A stretch of 43,579 bases of DNA, from positions 1 to 43,579 of the IMG/VR virus record IMGVR_UViG_3300045125_000029. One strand, 5' to 3'. This document shows, piece by piece, positions 1,054 to 9,822 of the stretch (its first letter is position 1; each line of letters starts with the position of its first letter). The translations under genes and the position numbers were made by a program. This DNA is from a virus. Below the pieces are notes generated by a model, which was not told the DNA's origin, ran no database searches, and was given only the letters and a program-made list of their open reading frames with translations.

Positions 1054-1465
1054 ATGGCACGCACCTACTACACACTCTGCAAGTACGACACCGACAGCGG
1101 GCGCTTGGTTTGACGACTTCGCGATTCGTACAAGAAAGCCGAAGTTCTGGCGGAACGTGACGCCGCACGCGACGACGGCACGAAAGCCGCGCAACTTCCG
1201 TAGGATTGTCGACAACCGACGGCACGCGCGACGCACTGATTGACGCACGTGGCCAAGCTGAACAAGGTGCGATGATCATGGGCGCTAAGTTCGTATCGTA
1301 TGGCACGAACGCTTTCGTGTGGCGTTCCACATGGGCCACACTGAAGCGGACAGTTCGAAAGCGCTGGCAATCGCGCAAGTTCGTACCAACGCGTACGTTG
1401 CAAGGCTCGCGCCGTCTAGTCTTAGAAACGCCGAACTGTTCAACACTCTCGCAAAAGGAATATGA
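1054..1465 (+). CDS. Hypothetical early protein (several frameshifts)
   Basis: ATG 1054 has a good ribosome site (AAGGA). The protein opens MARTYYTLCKYDTDSGRL, stops at 1113 in that frame, and resumes in another frame with DSYKKAEVLAERDAARDDG. It continues from about 1206 with DGTRDALIDARGQAEQGAM and then AFHMGHTEADSSKALAIAQV. At least three indels are needed to read it through. The tyrosine-rich opening and charged helical middle match no family I know. The last 60 bases are similar to the untranslated leader before 2463, so the true stop may be near 1419. Confidence 0.4.
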
Positions 1466-1471
1466 CCAAAT
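1405..1471 (+). repeat. Conserved leader sequence, copy 1
   Basis: This segment aligns over some 60 bases with 2397-2464. Both carry CGCAAAAGGAAT just before the ATG of the next gene, and both share a TAG-TTAGAA-CGCC pattern upstream. A shorter third copy (CCCTCGCAAAAGGACAGA) precedes the ATG at 4828. These look like duplicated translation leaders, or processing signals of an early operon. Confidence 0.6.
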
Positions 1472-2385
1472 GACGCTCATGAACGTGAAAACCCGCCCGC
1501 GCCGTCGATTTGTCGCAACGCGTCTTGCTGGTGCAACTTTCCGTTTCGCAGTGGACGGCGCGCAAGCTTGACAAACGCGCGACGGCATGACATCGCCGAA
1601 CGGAACGACGCCAAACGCGACAGCGGGCCGTTACAATAAGACGCTTGTCGCACGCGGCGCACTCGCGGCAATCGCTGCAATCGTGGCCAGTGCTGCGCGA
1701 CAGGATCACATGGCATACAGCCCTGCCATGGCTGCAGGACGGAACCCGCATCATGCCGGTTGACGCGTTCAAGGTGTACGCCGCCAAGATGCAAGCGCAT
1801 CGCGAAAGCTTTGAAAGGAAGTCGTCTGACTTTCTCGCGAACTATGACGACTATATTGAAAGCGCGCGCGCGGACCTTGGCGCGCTGTTCAATCGGGCGG
1901 ATTATCCGTCCAAGGCGGAACTGTGCGCGGCGGTTCGGCTGGCGCATCAACACTTTCCGCTGCCGAACGGCATCCGACTTTCGCGTGGATTTGGACAAGG
2001 AAACCGCTGACAGCGCTGCAAGCTGACATGCAGGCGGACATTCGAGGCGCGTTCAAGACCGCCATGTGCTGACGTTCCGCAGGGCGCTTGCACGACGTGG
2101 CGCGCGCCATGTCTGGACAAGCTGAACGCGTACAAGCCCGAACTCGGAAAGCAGGGAAACCCGTTCCGCGACAGCTTGGTGGAAAACGTGCGGGAACTGG
2201 TCGCGGTTCTGCCTATGCTGAACGTCACCGGCGACGCGCGGCTTGCCAAGGCGATTGAGGACGCACGCGCCAAGCTTGTGCGGCACGATGCGCAAGACCT
2301 GCGCGACGACGCGGCATTGCGGCAAGAGACAGCCAAGGCCGCCGCCGACATCGCGGACGCAATGGGCGCTTTCATGGGCGCATGA
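1470..2385 (+). CDS. MoxR/VWA-associated helical protein (multiple frameshifts)
   Basis: Starts at ATG 1470, four bases after an AAAGGAA leader. Pieces in different frames join into one protein of roughly 300 residues: an N-terminal LLVQLSVSQWTARKLDK segment, then RYNKTLVARGALAAIAAIV, a middle block at 1750-2010 (DDYIESARADLGALFNRADY) and a C-terminal block at 2176-2385 (SLVENVRELVAVLPMLN). At least five indels interrupt it. The sequence is mostly alpha-helical and charged. From memory of similar phages, a protein of this type sits directly before a MoxR ATPase and a VWA/metallopeptidase gene, as here. I treat it as the third member of that module. A DUF3150-type assignment is possible but unproven. 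Confidence 0.55.
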
Positions 2386-2394
2386 CGTTTCTAG

Positions 2395-2415
2395 GCTAGG
2401 CGCGCGTCGCCTAGC
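2395..2415 (+). terminator. Stem-loop between early genes
   Basis: GCTAGGCG (2395-2402) pairs perfectly with CGCCTAGC (2408-2415) around a five-base loop, and TTTAG follows. It sits ten bases after the stop at 2385. The T-run is short, so it may act as a weak terminator or as an mRNA stabilising or processing hairpin ahead of the MoxR gene. Confidence 0.45.
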
Positions 2416-2464
2416 TTTAGAAGCGCCAAAGCTTCGCAACCCTCGCAAAAGGAATAGACCAGAT
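2397..2464 (+). repeat. Conserved leader sequence, copy 2
   Basis: Partner of 1405-1471. It ends in AACCCTCGCAAAAGGAATAG just upstream of ATG 2463. The strong AAAGGA ribosome site lies within the shared part. A shorter relative precedes 4828. Confidence 0.6.
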
Positions 2465-3465
2465 GGAAACCCTTGAACTGAAACCGACCGACGCCCGCGC
2501 CGTGATTGAGGCGCACATTGACGCGAACAACCCGGTTTTGTTGACCGGCCAGCCGGGCGTCGGGAAGTCTGACGTCGTGCGGCAAATCGCGACGGCGCGC
2601 GGCTGGAATGTTATCGACTTGCGGCTGTCCACGATTGACGCTGTGGACTTGCGCGGTCTTCCCATGCTGGACGGCGGCAAGGCGCGGTTCGCGCCCATGG
2701 GCGAACTGCCCGACGCGAACCGCGACGGCGCGGCGGGCATTCTGTTTCTTGACGAACTGCCGCAGGCCGCGCCTCGCCGTCCAGAACGCCGCCTTTTCGC
2801 TAGTCCTTGACCGGCGCATTGGTGAATACCACTTGCCGCCCGCGTGGCGCGTCGTGGCGGCAGGAAACCGGCTGCAAGACCGGGCGGGCGCGAACCGCGT
2901 CAACAGCGCCCTAGCGAACCGCTTCGCTCATGTGGCCATGACGCATGAGCTTAACGACTGGTGTACTTGGGCGCTGGCAAACGACGTCGCGCCCGAACTG
3001 GTGGCGTTCCTGCGGTTCCGGCCCGGCTTGCTTGTGGATTTTGAACCCGACCGGGCGGTCAACGCCACGCCGCGTACTTGGGTTATGGCGGGCAAGCTGT
3101 TGAACCGCGCCCTGCCGCCGCAAGTCGAAAGTGCGGCCTTGGCAAGCGTCGTGGGCGCAGGCCATGCTGCCGAACTTCTCGCGTTCGTGCGTATCTGGCG
3201 CGGCCTGCCGTCGCCTGACTTGGTACTCATGAACCCGCAAGGCGCGCCCGTGCCGTCCGACGGCGCGACGCTGTACGCCCTTTGCGGCGCGCTGGCGCGG
3301 CGTGTGACGCACCAGTCGATTGACGCATTCGTGACGTACGTTGACCGCCTGCCGCCCGAATATGGCGTCATCGCCATGCGCGACGCGACGGCGCGCGACG
3401 CGACGCTTGAGAAGACGACGGCGGCAATTCGCTGGCTGTCTGCAAATTCCAATATCTATCTGTGA
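2463..3465 (+). CDS. MoxR-type AAA+ ATPase (one frameshift)
   Basis: An AAA+ ATPase of about 333 residues. Walker A is GQPGVGKS at residues 29-36, Walker B is ILFLDE at about 93-98, and a sensor-1 like VVAAGNR lies near residue 130. The frame breaks near 2770 (first piece 2463-2810, second piece in the frame ending 3465). Across the break, ELPQAA joins to QNAAFSLVLDRRIGEYHLPP, the expected AAA+ region after Walker B. MoxR ATPases normally work with a VWA-domain partner to remodel or activate proteins, and the next gene is such a partner. The start is fixed by the AAAGGAA leader. Its role in the phage is unknown; early host takeover is an inference from position. Confidence 0.85.
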
Positions 3466-3475
3466 GGGCGAGACA

Positions 3476-4714
3476 ATGGCACAAACACCAGCCGAAGTTA
3501 AACTGTCGCGGGCGCGGCGCATATGATCCTGAACGCGCCCTTTTATGCGGTCTTGTCGCTTTCCATGCAATTCGTGCGGCGCGATGATATCGACACAATG
3601 GCGACAGATGGAAAGTCGATATTCTATAACGACGCTTTCGTCATGGGCGAAGACGACGAAACAATTCGCGGCGTCGTGGCGCATGAGGTCGCGCACGTGG
3701 CCAACCTGCACCACACGCGGCGCGGCGGGCGTGATCCTGACGACTGGAACAAAGCGTGCGACTATGCGATTGACCCGCAACTTGAAAAGGACGGGTTCAA
3801 AGTCAGCTAAGTTCGGGTTCGTGAAACCCGAATATTTCGACATGAGTGCAGAACAGATTTACAGCGCCTTGCAGGCGGGAAAGCAAAAGGAACAAGACGG
3901 CGCGCAAGGGCAACAGCCGCAGCGTGGCCAAGGCGCGCCGCAGGCGGGCGCTACGGCACCACAAGCGCCCGCGCCGCAGGGTGAGCAAGGCGCGCCCCTG
4001 CAACAGCCTGCTAGCGGCGTTCCTAGCGCCTCTGGCATGGGGCGCGGCGGTGTACTTGACGCCGCGCCAGACAGTGATCCCGCCGCGCTGCAAGAGGCGG
4101 AACTTGACGCCATGGCCAAGACGCTACAGGCGGCGCAAGCTGCCAAGGCGGCAGGCAAGGGCAGCGCGGCAGGCAAGCTTGCAGCCGACGCAATCCGCAA
4201 GCCCGTTATTGACTGGCGCAACGTGCTGCGGCGGTTCGTCGATAGCGCGGCGCGCGTGTCGCAACAGTGGCACCGTCCGAACCGTCGCCACGTGCACGCG
4301 GGCATGTACCTTCCCGGCAACGTACCTGACAGCATGGGCAAGTTAGGCGTCGTGTTTGACGTATCGGGCAGCACGTGCAACCCGCGAACCCTCGCGACGT
4401 TTCTAGGCGAATTGCAGGGCGCGATTGATGACGCAATGCCCGCGCAAACCGTCATCTTGCTTTGCGATACCAAGATCAAGGCGCGGTACGAGTACGAACC
4501 GGGCGAACCCTTGAACGTAAAGCTTATTGGCGGTGGCGGGACGAACATGCAACCCGCCATTGACGAACTGCAAGACGCTGCGGCGGTAATCGTGTTCACT
4601 GATTGCGACTTTCCGCGCGAACCGACCGATAGGGGCGTGCCGACGCTTTGGGCCAAGTACGGGCGGCGCGGCAAATACCCCGCATGGGGCGAAGCAATCG
4701 AATTGCCAGAGTGA
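3476..4714 (+). CDS. DUF2201-type metallopeptidase/VWA-like protein (two frameshifts)
   Basis: About 412 residues. The N-terminal domain has the zinc-peptidase motif HEVAH at about residue 70 (GVVAHEVAHVANLHH). A Gln/Ala/Pro-rich linker follows (about 3890-4080). The C-terminal VWA-like domain has the metal-site motif DVSGST at about residue 295 and later GGGGTNMQPAI and FTDCDF. This domain order is that of DUF2201 proteins, which pair with MoxR ATPases. Pieces: MAQTPAEVKLSRARR from ATG 3476, 3523-3810, and the frame ending 4714; one indel near 3522 and one near 3808 rejoin them. It begins ten bases after the MoxR stop. The Asp-x-Ser-x-Ser site appears intact. Confidence 0.85.
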
Positions 4715-4720
4715 CTAACC

Positions 4721-4743
4721 AGGCGCGCCGTCGCGGCGCGCCT
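4721..4743 (+). terminator. GC-rich stem-loop after the MoxR/VWA module
   Basis: AGGCGCGCCG (4721-4730) and CGGCGCGCCT (4734-4743) form a perfect 10-bp stem with a TCG loop, followed by TAATTAG. It lies six bases after the VWA stop. A possible promoter (TTGACA at 4756-4761) follows at once, so this is a likely transcription boundary. Confidence 0.6.
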
Positions 4744-4755
4744 TAATTAGACCAT

Positions 4756-8203: not shown

Positions 8204-8684
8204 TTTAGAGATAGAGAAGCTTCGCACCGAACTCGCCGCGATGACGAAAGAACGCGATGACCTAGCGGCTATCGTGTGGGGGAAGATCAAGGGCAAAGCG
8301 CCGAGTATGAACATGGGCGGTCAGCCCGCGCCGCAAACGAAGTGTGCGATGTGCGGGCAAGACTGCACCGGCCACGCCCCGAACATGGCGTACGGCGTGC
8401 GTTACTGTGATTTGTGCGTCGCGCGCTACACCGACGACTACATACTGGAACACGCGCGGGGCGTCATGGCATCTGGCGGCGCGCTAGTCGTGGACAAGAA
8501 CGGCGCGCCGGTTAACAAGCCGGTCCTGCGCCCCGCGCCGGTATACCCTACGCCGGTATACAAAGACCCCGTGGCGCAGAAGATCGCAGAAGCGCCGTTC
8601 AAGGACACGACGGATACACAGATTATCGACCGCAACGAATGGGATGCGTGGGTCGCGTCTCTTACATCAGGACACACGCCATGA
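8190..8684 (+). CDS. Hypothetical protein with coiled coil and CxxC zinc-like site
   Basis: 164 residues from GTG 8190, chosen because it gives the full-length heptad helix (LEIEKLRTELAAMTKERDDL). Two cysteine pairs follow (CAMCGQDC and CDLC), which could form one zinc finger. The C-terminal third is proline-rich with a PVYPTPVYKDP repeat. No family recognised. It is coupled to the next gene by ATGA. Confidence 0.55.
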   Translation: MDERDLEIEKLRTELAAMTKERDDLAAIVWGKIKGKAPSMNMGGQPAPQTKCAMCGQDCTGHAPNMAYGVRYCDLCVARYTDDYILEHARGVMASGGALVVDKNGAPVNKPVLRPAPVYPTPVYKDPVAQKIAEAPFKDTTDTQIIDRNEWDAWVASLTSGHTP

Positions 8685-9034
8685 CCGAAACGCTTATGCC
8701 GTCGCCGAAACCTATCCGCACGTTTGACCTTGCCGTCAGTGTCAGCGGTTGGCTTGACGGGACGATTGACGACTGGCCCGCGAACATTCAAGACGGACTG
8801 TACGCCGCGCTTGAACGCAAGGCGAAGGAAATCCAGCTTCCTATCGTTATCGTGTACAGCAAGTGTGAGATTGACCCCGACGTTCCCGAAGGCTCGCCGG
8901 GCCACTTCTACCTGCACGTCATCGCGAGTGAAATCGTGATCGCGGACGAACGCGCGCTGCGACCGGGCACCGTGCAAAAGGCGCTGGCGCAAGAGATTGA
9001 ACAGGTGATGCGTGACCTTGGTTTTAGGCATTGA
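8681..9034 (+). CDS. Hypothetical phage protein
   Basis: 117 residues from ATG 8681, overlapping the previous stop by four bases. The core alternates strands and helices (FDLAVSVSGWLDG; IQLPIVIVYSKCEI; FYLHVIASEIVI) and ends in a helix (EQVMRDLGF). I recognise no motif. Its 3' end overlaps the resolvase gene start by 23 bases. Confidence 0.55.
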   Translation: MTETLMPSPKPIRTFDLAVSVSGWLDGTIDDWPANIQDGLYAALERKAKEIQLPIVIVYSKCEIDPDVPEGSPGHFYLHVIASEIVIADERALRPGTVQKALAQEIEQVMRDLGFRH

Positions 9035-9591: not shown

Positions 9592-9822
9592 ATGGACGAA
9601 ACACTTAAAGCTGAACTTGACGGGTTGATCAGCCAAACCGGCGACGCCATTGCGGCGCTGTGTGAGCAGATGCTAAAAGGCAACTGGACCGACGACATGG
9701 GGCACCCTGTACGTATGAACACCGCCATGCTAGCGATGCGGGGACGCCTTGTCGCTCTTGGCGAGTTCCGCGCACGCCACCTTGGCTACGGACCGTTCAA
9801 CATGCCCGCTACGAGGTACTGA
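9592..9822 (+). CDS. Small helical hypothetical protein
   Basis: 76 residues from ATG 9592, directly after the resolvase stop. It is helical (LKAELDGLISQTGDAIAALC; AMLAMRGRLVALGEFRARHL) without recognisable motifs. The next gene starts one base after its stop. Confidence 0.5.
   Translation: MDETLKAELDGLISQTGDAIAALCEQMLKGNWTDDMGHPVRMNTAMLAMRGRLVALGEFRARHLGYGPFNMPATRY

Follow-up and report, generated by a model that had tools for sequence, protein, structure and literature searches.

What would a phage remodel with a MoxR-type AAA+ ATPase, a metallopeptidase-VWA protein and a third protein, all encoded side by side? This question is raised by a locus at the left end of the plus-strand gene block in a 43.6-kb virus record, which is referred to here in its full length as the window. 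The original prediction of a three-gene module at positions 1470-4714 is borne out, except that the protein described as helical comes first, followed by the MoxR-type ATPase and the metallopeptidase-VWA protein (Table 1). The plus strand carries early and replication genes up to about 19 kb (coding for a RuvC-like resolvase, a helicase, a Gp2.5-like SSB, DNA polymerase A and a primase), and the minus strand carries mostly structural genes (terminase, portal, protease-like, major head, tail, transglycosylase and head proteins).

Table 1. Coordinates of the module in the window, and of a neighbouring family in other loci.
Feature	Position	Strand	Remarks
Leader 5' of DUF3150, diverged copy of the MoxR leader	1391-1467	+	aligned with other leaders
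DUF3150 protein	1470-2385	+	several indels; tblastn with intact L002 protein, E 2e-89
Hairpin leader 5' of MoxR	2384-2460	+	17-bp-class hairpin
MoxR-type AAA+ ATPase (N4 gp24 family, phrog_1297)	2463-3465	+	frame change near 2770
Walker A GQPGVGKS	2547-2570		MoxR
Walker B ILFLDE	2739-2756		MoxR
Sensor-1 Asn	2851-2868		MoxR
NRF	2905-2931		MoxR
Sensor-2 PR	3070-3087		MoxR
Metallopeptidase (DUF2201_N), flexible linker and VWA/MIDAS (DUF2201) protein (N4 gp25 family, phrog_1314)	3476-4714	+	
Zinc site HEVAHVANLHH	3679-3714		metallopeptidase domain
MIDAS DVSGST	4355-4375		VWA domain
GGGGTN	4529-4546		VWA domain
FTD	4592-4609		VWA domain
Strong hairpin closing the module	4710-4755	+	z -4.2
phrog_1965 family, examples	L184 7627-8316; L211 9321-9980; L034 12392-13033; others		

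State of the genes and their leaders

All three reading frames are broken by small indels in the window, several of them in the DUF3150 gene, with further frame changes near 3515 and 3805 in the gene of the metallopeptidase-VWA protein. The two main fragments of the DUF3150 protein match the DUF3150 profile with E-values of 7e-28 and 2e-27, and a sister contig (L002) carries all three genes intact and in the same order, with all ATPase, zinc-site and MIDAS residues present. Comparable breaks relative to L002 occur in other genes of the window (a gene at 0.6-0.96 kb, genes at 5.3 and 5.9 kb and the helicase gene at 10.2-11.6 kb). The indels thus look like sequencing error and not like decay of the module, and a reading of the window copy as pseudogenes was rejected. 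In the pairwise alignment of window and L002, changes are commonest at the third codon positions of all three genes (138/239, 140/239 and 158/293), as expected under purifying selection.

A 69-nt hairpin leader is duplicated perfectly in L002, 5' of the DUF3150 gene (8630-8698) and of the MoxR gene (9607-9675). The leaders had been predicted to be conserved, which applies to the one preceding MoxR: its hairpin is kept (z -2.1 in the window, about -4 in L002), with one compensatory change of a stem pair between the two sequences (T-A to G-C). It does not apply to the leader of the DUF3150 gene, whose window copy has diverged and folds no better than shuffled sequences (z +0.75, compared to -3.7 in L002); this copy has decayed or is misread. 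The hairpin 3' of the VWA gene recurs at the same place in L002 with a different sequence (z -5.7). Leader and closing hairpins may represent processing or termination sites. As an observation on the record itself, several genes between 0.6 and 11.6 kb are split by frame changes of one base when compared with the sister contig, which suggests an error-prone assembly with unreliable ORF calls.

Domains and folds of the three proteins

The Walker A/B, HEVAH and DVSGST motifs named in the original prediction were all located in the window. The ATPase shows the complete set of motifs indicating MoxR membership, i.e. Walker A and B, sensor 1, arginine finger and sensor 2, and its L002 version matches Pfam AAA_5 over the cut-off (E 2e-9), Pfam AAA and phrog_1297 of the PHROGs collection (E 3e-91). 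The best sequence match of the ATPase profile is Midasin, followed by weaker matches to CbbQ/NorQ, and a match to bpMoxR stays below its cut-off (19.8 bits, cut-off 27).

The metallopeptidase-VWA protein of L002 matches DUF2201_N (PF13203, E 4e-50), the DUF2201 VWA domain (PF09967, E 3e-16) and phrog_1314 (E 7e-89). Among 36 homologs, the HExxH motif with a further His and Asp (H80, E81, H84, H89 and D106) is invariant or nearly so, as are the MIDAS residues D297, S299, S301 and T358 (invariant) and D378 (nearly so). The structural model (pLDDT 81.7) consists of two domains joined by a disordered linker (residues 151-190, pLDDT < 50). The closest fold to the VWA half is that of the Midasin MIDAS domain (8ql1, E 2e-4), and NorD from the NorQD complex (9qhe) matches less strongly. 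The N-terminal half weakly matches selecase and M48 peptidases, and a SprT-like match of this protease domain is weak and stays under the Pfam cut-off. The label "HNH endonuclease" given to phrog_1314 by PHROGs was rejected, since the domains are a metallopeptidase and a VWA domain. Many RefSeq phage records carry the same annotation for homologs of N4 gp25, which consist of these two domains as well.

The DUF3150 protein of L002 matches PF11348 with an E-value of 8e-7 and yields a confident model (pLDDT 89.8, 42 sequences). This model contains two helices of 43 residues, in keeping with the predicted helical protein, but has an alpha+beta and not an all-helical fold. Its comparison with the PDB by fold produced no match (best E 0.27), and convincing scores against a library of viral structures were obtained only with proteins of its own kind. 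Sequence searches against the PDB returned coiled-coil-like hits only (apolipoprotein A-IV, spike helices), which were judged as chance. The DUF3150 proteins are acidic, with a median pI of 5.9.

Linkage, distribution and relatives of the trio

Scans with single sequences for close relatives were nearly empty, recovering one with the MoxR protein of the window and none with its VWA half; therefore, alignments were used as queries. They matched 769 cultured phage records for MoxR and 443 for the VWA protein, and N4-like phages are frequent among the best matches of both. The assumption that MoxR-VWA pairs are mainly bacterial is not supported, as the pair corresponds to gp24/gp25 of phage N4 and also occurs in jumbo phages. 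DUF3150 proteins were found in 4 cultured phages only, in numerous viral contigs, and on 42 plasmids, most of which come from Burkholderiales.

When loci were fetched by DUF3150, 76 of 80 viral contigs contained all three genes on one strand within less than 6 kb, and 54 of 80 genome loci contained all three. The search for the trio in other mobile elements thus recovered a conserved set in phages and plasmids, whose composition and strand are constant. Its gene order, which had been expected to be conserved, varies: 164 of the 179 trio loci are arranged as MoxR, DUF3150 and VWA protein (M, D, V), 14 as DMV like the window, and one as MVD. The D, M and V distances correlate in viruses at 0.89-0.92 (0/500 permutations). 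About 35 viral contigs contain the MoxR-VWA pair without DUF3150, and a 42-sequence profile detected no hidden DUF3150 in the pair-only loci, including those of the N4-like phages LUZ7 and JWAlpha. In 17 pair-only contigs a phrog_1965 protein, whose weak Nmad5 match lies below the cut-off, is encoded between MoxR and the VWA protein. A role as replacement third subunit was rejected, since this protein also occurs downstream of 41 complete trios and is more likely a frequent neighbour.

The trio is also present on large Burkholderiales plasmids. A tree of the VWA protein nests the plasmid copies among the viral ones, with at least three switches between plasmids and viruses forced by well-supported branches; note that this is a quick tree with long branches, and that some contigs called viral may be misclassified. 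In many plasmids, although not all, the trio lies between PRTRC and T4SS genes. VirB11 is encoded near 34 of the 54 genome trio loci, and PRTRC ThiF near 25 of the 54 and in no viral locus, for which reason a general link of the MIDAS domain to the ubiquitin-like PRTRC plasmid genes was discarded. A protein of about 510 residues is encoded directly upstream of the trio in 47 plasmid or genome loci (e.g. L013 5033-6592, L010 5651-7171) and has no match in NCBIfam or Pfam.

A different partner accompanies DUF3150 in chromosomal loci lacking the full trio: in 21 of 26, it adjoins a classical AAA ATPase (PF00004) of one homologous family, as it does in phage Tunturi_3. These loci belong to Planctomycetes, Deltaproteobacteria and the one phage. 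The occurrence of DUF3150 with two kinds of AAA+ ATPases suggests that it is a partner of such enzymes. The loci with classical AAA ATPases (L156, L160, L162, L165 and others, as well as L009 of Tunturi_3) also include small conserved genes, which presumably recall DUF2997/DUF1257 (Ycf35-like).

The predicted early placement is supported by the viral contigs, where DNA polymerase A, whenever it was found near the module, is encoded downstream of it and on the same strand (45 of 45 cases), and the terminase genes, wherever they were found, lie upstream and on the opposite strand, so that the module opens the early/replication operon. In the cultured phage with the portal protein most similar to that of the window, MW202898, none of the three profiles found a match, although it has the terminase, portal, major head, tail and head proteins as well as RuvC, helicase, SSB, DNA polymerase A and primase in common with the window. 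Profiles of all three proteins did not find the trio in BcepC6B, BUCT708 and Vibrio 1.182.O either. The module is therefore accessory to both virion formation and replication in this group. Inherited as a set, shared with large bacterial plasmids and absent from the closest known relative, it probably acts on some component of the host cell and not in the construction of the virion.

Several known systems resemble parts of the trio. The N4 genes gp24/gp25, which count among the core genes listed for N4-like phages (PMC4193335) and belong to the Schitoviridae core, encode a homologous MoxR and metallopeptidase-VWA pair on one strand and in the same order, in a middle-early position upstream of the replication genes as in the window; however, no DUF3150 was found in the N4-like loci of LUZ7 and JWAlpha, in contrast to the window and L002. 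Whether gp24/gp25 are essential is not discussed in the main text of the CRISPRi-ART paper. The same pair with the same domain fusion is described for group 2.2 jumbo phages, and the passages on this pair do not mention DUF3150 (Iyer et al., 2021; PMC7824862). These passages also cite another virus-encoded MoxR and VWA pair, p618/p892 of ATV, an archaeal virus with tail development outside the cell, where the peptidase domain is missing. NorQ-NorD and CbbQ-CbbO likewise combine a MoxR ring with a partner carrying a linker and a C-terminal VWA domain, and NorD is a structural match to the VWA part, whereas the N-terminal metallopeptidase and the separate third protein are particular to the trio, which has no adjoining metalloenzyme gene. 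Midasin/Rea1, the best match of both the ATPase profile (by sequence) and the VWA part (by fold), differs in being a single chain with six AAA modules and the MIDAS domain on the same polypeptide, and the trio consists of separate proteins and includes a protease. Finally, the MoxR-vWA ternary conflict systems (Kaur et al., 2020; PMC7159879) resemble the trio in having a third conserved protein, but their third components (VMAP, iSTAND, FtsH, beta-propeller) are replaced here by DUF3150, and the trio lacks effector domains and is carried by phages and plasmids.

Possible functions

With about even confidence, we favour the reading that the trio constitutes one ATP-driven machine for remodelling or proteolysis, acting early on a host complex with DUF3150 as adaptor. 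As judged from its full set of motifs, the MoxR ATPase would be the ring motor, and its partner, by sequence and model, has a zinc metallopeptidase domain at the N-terminus and a VWA/MIDAS domain at the C-terminus, joined by a disordered linker. By analogy with NorQD and Midasin, the VWA domain may dock in the AAA+ ring and be turned by ATP hydrolysis, pulling the linker and whatever its other end holds; for NorQD, docking of the VWA partner in the ring and twisting of the linker upon ATP hydrolysis have been described (PMC13036017). DUF3150, going by its linkage, would bring in or position the target, which the metallopeptidase would then cut. Position and distribution suggest an action at an early stage of infection, or, for plasmids, while they are being established or maintained, against a host protein or complex in the service of takeover or counter-defence. 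It counts against the adaptor role that N4-like phages and the pair-only viral contigs do without DUF3150, and against a host target that the adjoining replication genes would fit equally well with a role in the replication complex of the phage. The neighbouring genes do not point to any particular defence or host target. PADLOC gave no convincing match, with weak AAA matches for the ATPase and none for the other two proteins.

The main published alternative is a chaperone and maturation protease for virion assembly, which would fold, insert or process head or tail proteins. Assembly with peptide processing was proposed for the pair of group 2.2 jumbo phages, in passages that cite ATV p618/p892, for which such a role is shown, as precedent (PMC7824862), and in roseophage RPP1 the gp24/gp25 homologs are close to an extra cluster of structural genes (PMC4193335). 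However, the latter homologs are absent from the 13 listed virion proteins of RPP1/RLP1, and N4 gp24/gp25 are middle rather than late genes (PMC4193335). Together with the early operon remote from the structural genes, the relatives sharing the head-tail genes without the trio, and the same trio on plasmids, which make no virion, this renders a role in assembly rather improbable for the trio. Among the three roles left open by the original prediction, virion maturation therefore recedes, and host inactivation and defence evasion are retained. The plasmids have also a bearing on an involvement in DNA delivery, i.e. in assembling the T4SS on plasmids and a matching injection apparatus in phages: T4SS genes directly follow the trio 3' on many Burkholderiales plasmids, which agrees with the frequency of VirB11, but other trio plasmids have no adjacent T4SS genes (Rhodovastum, Cupriavidus pRK1-1, Simplicispira), and the phage tail genes belong to the opposite operon, leaving this the least probable of the proposals.

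Somewhat more weight than to virion assembly is given to a role in the replication or partition of the element itself, with the trio remodelling this machinery by loading, stripping or recycling replication proteins, but we still regard it as unlikely. The invariable position upstream of DNA polymerase A in viruses is consistent with it, as are the ParB or PRTRC genes that adjoin the trio on several plasmids; on the other hand, MW202898 manages with a homologous polymerase, primase, SSB and helicase, and the replication genes differ among the trio-bearing elements. Freeing DNA of stuck or crosslinked proteins, where AAA+ unfolding would feed a SprT-like protease in the manner of p97-SPRTN, would fit the SprT-like match of the protease domain and the chromosomal loci of DUF3150 with classical AAA ATPases, one of which contains a SprT-like gene and three UvrD nearby. 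Since that gene occurs in only 1 of 26 loci, the match scores lie under curated cut-offs and DUF3150 is acidic, this proposal appears very unlikely.

Returning to an early action on a host complex, a bolder version, to which we give little credence, would see in DUF3150 an AAA+ adaptor of new fold that forms, with MoxR and the VWA-tethered metalloprotease, an early disassembly-and-cut machine of phages and conjugative plasmids, with which they would take apart a defence or control complex of the host as they enter. The pair of MoxR and metallopeptidase-VWA protein in phages is already known. In the literature searched, which contained no mention of DUF3150, no description was found of the set of three that includes it, of phages and plasmids having this set in common, or of a second kind of AAA ATPase as partner of DUF3150. 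The pair represents core genes of a whole phage family, and the third subunit, the carriage by plasmids and the close relative lacking the trio turn the role of these genes into a testable question. At the same time, the uncharacterised DUF3150 family gains a likely role as partner of AAA+ ATPases of two kinds.
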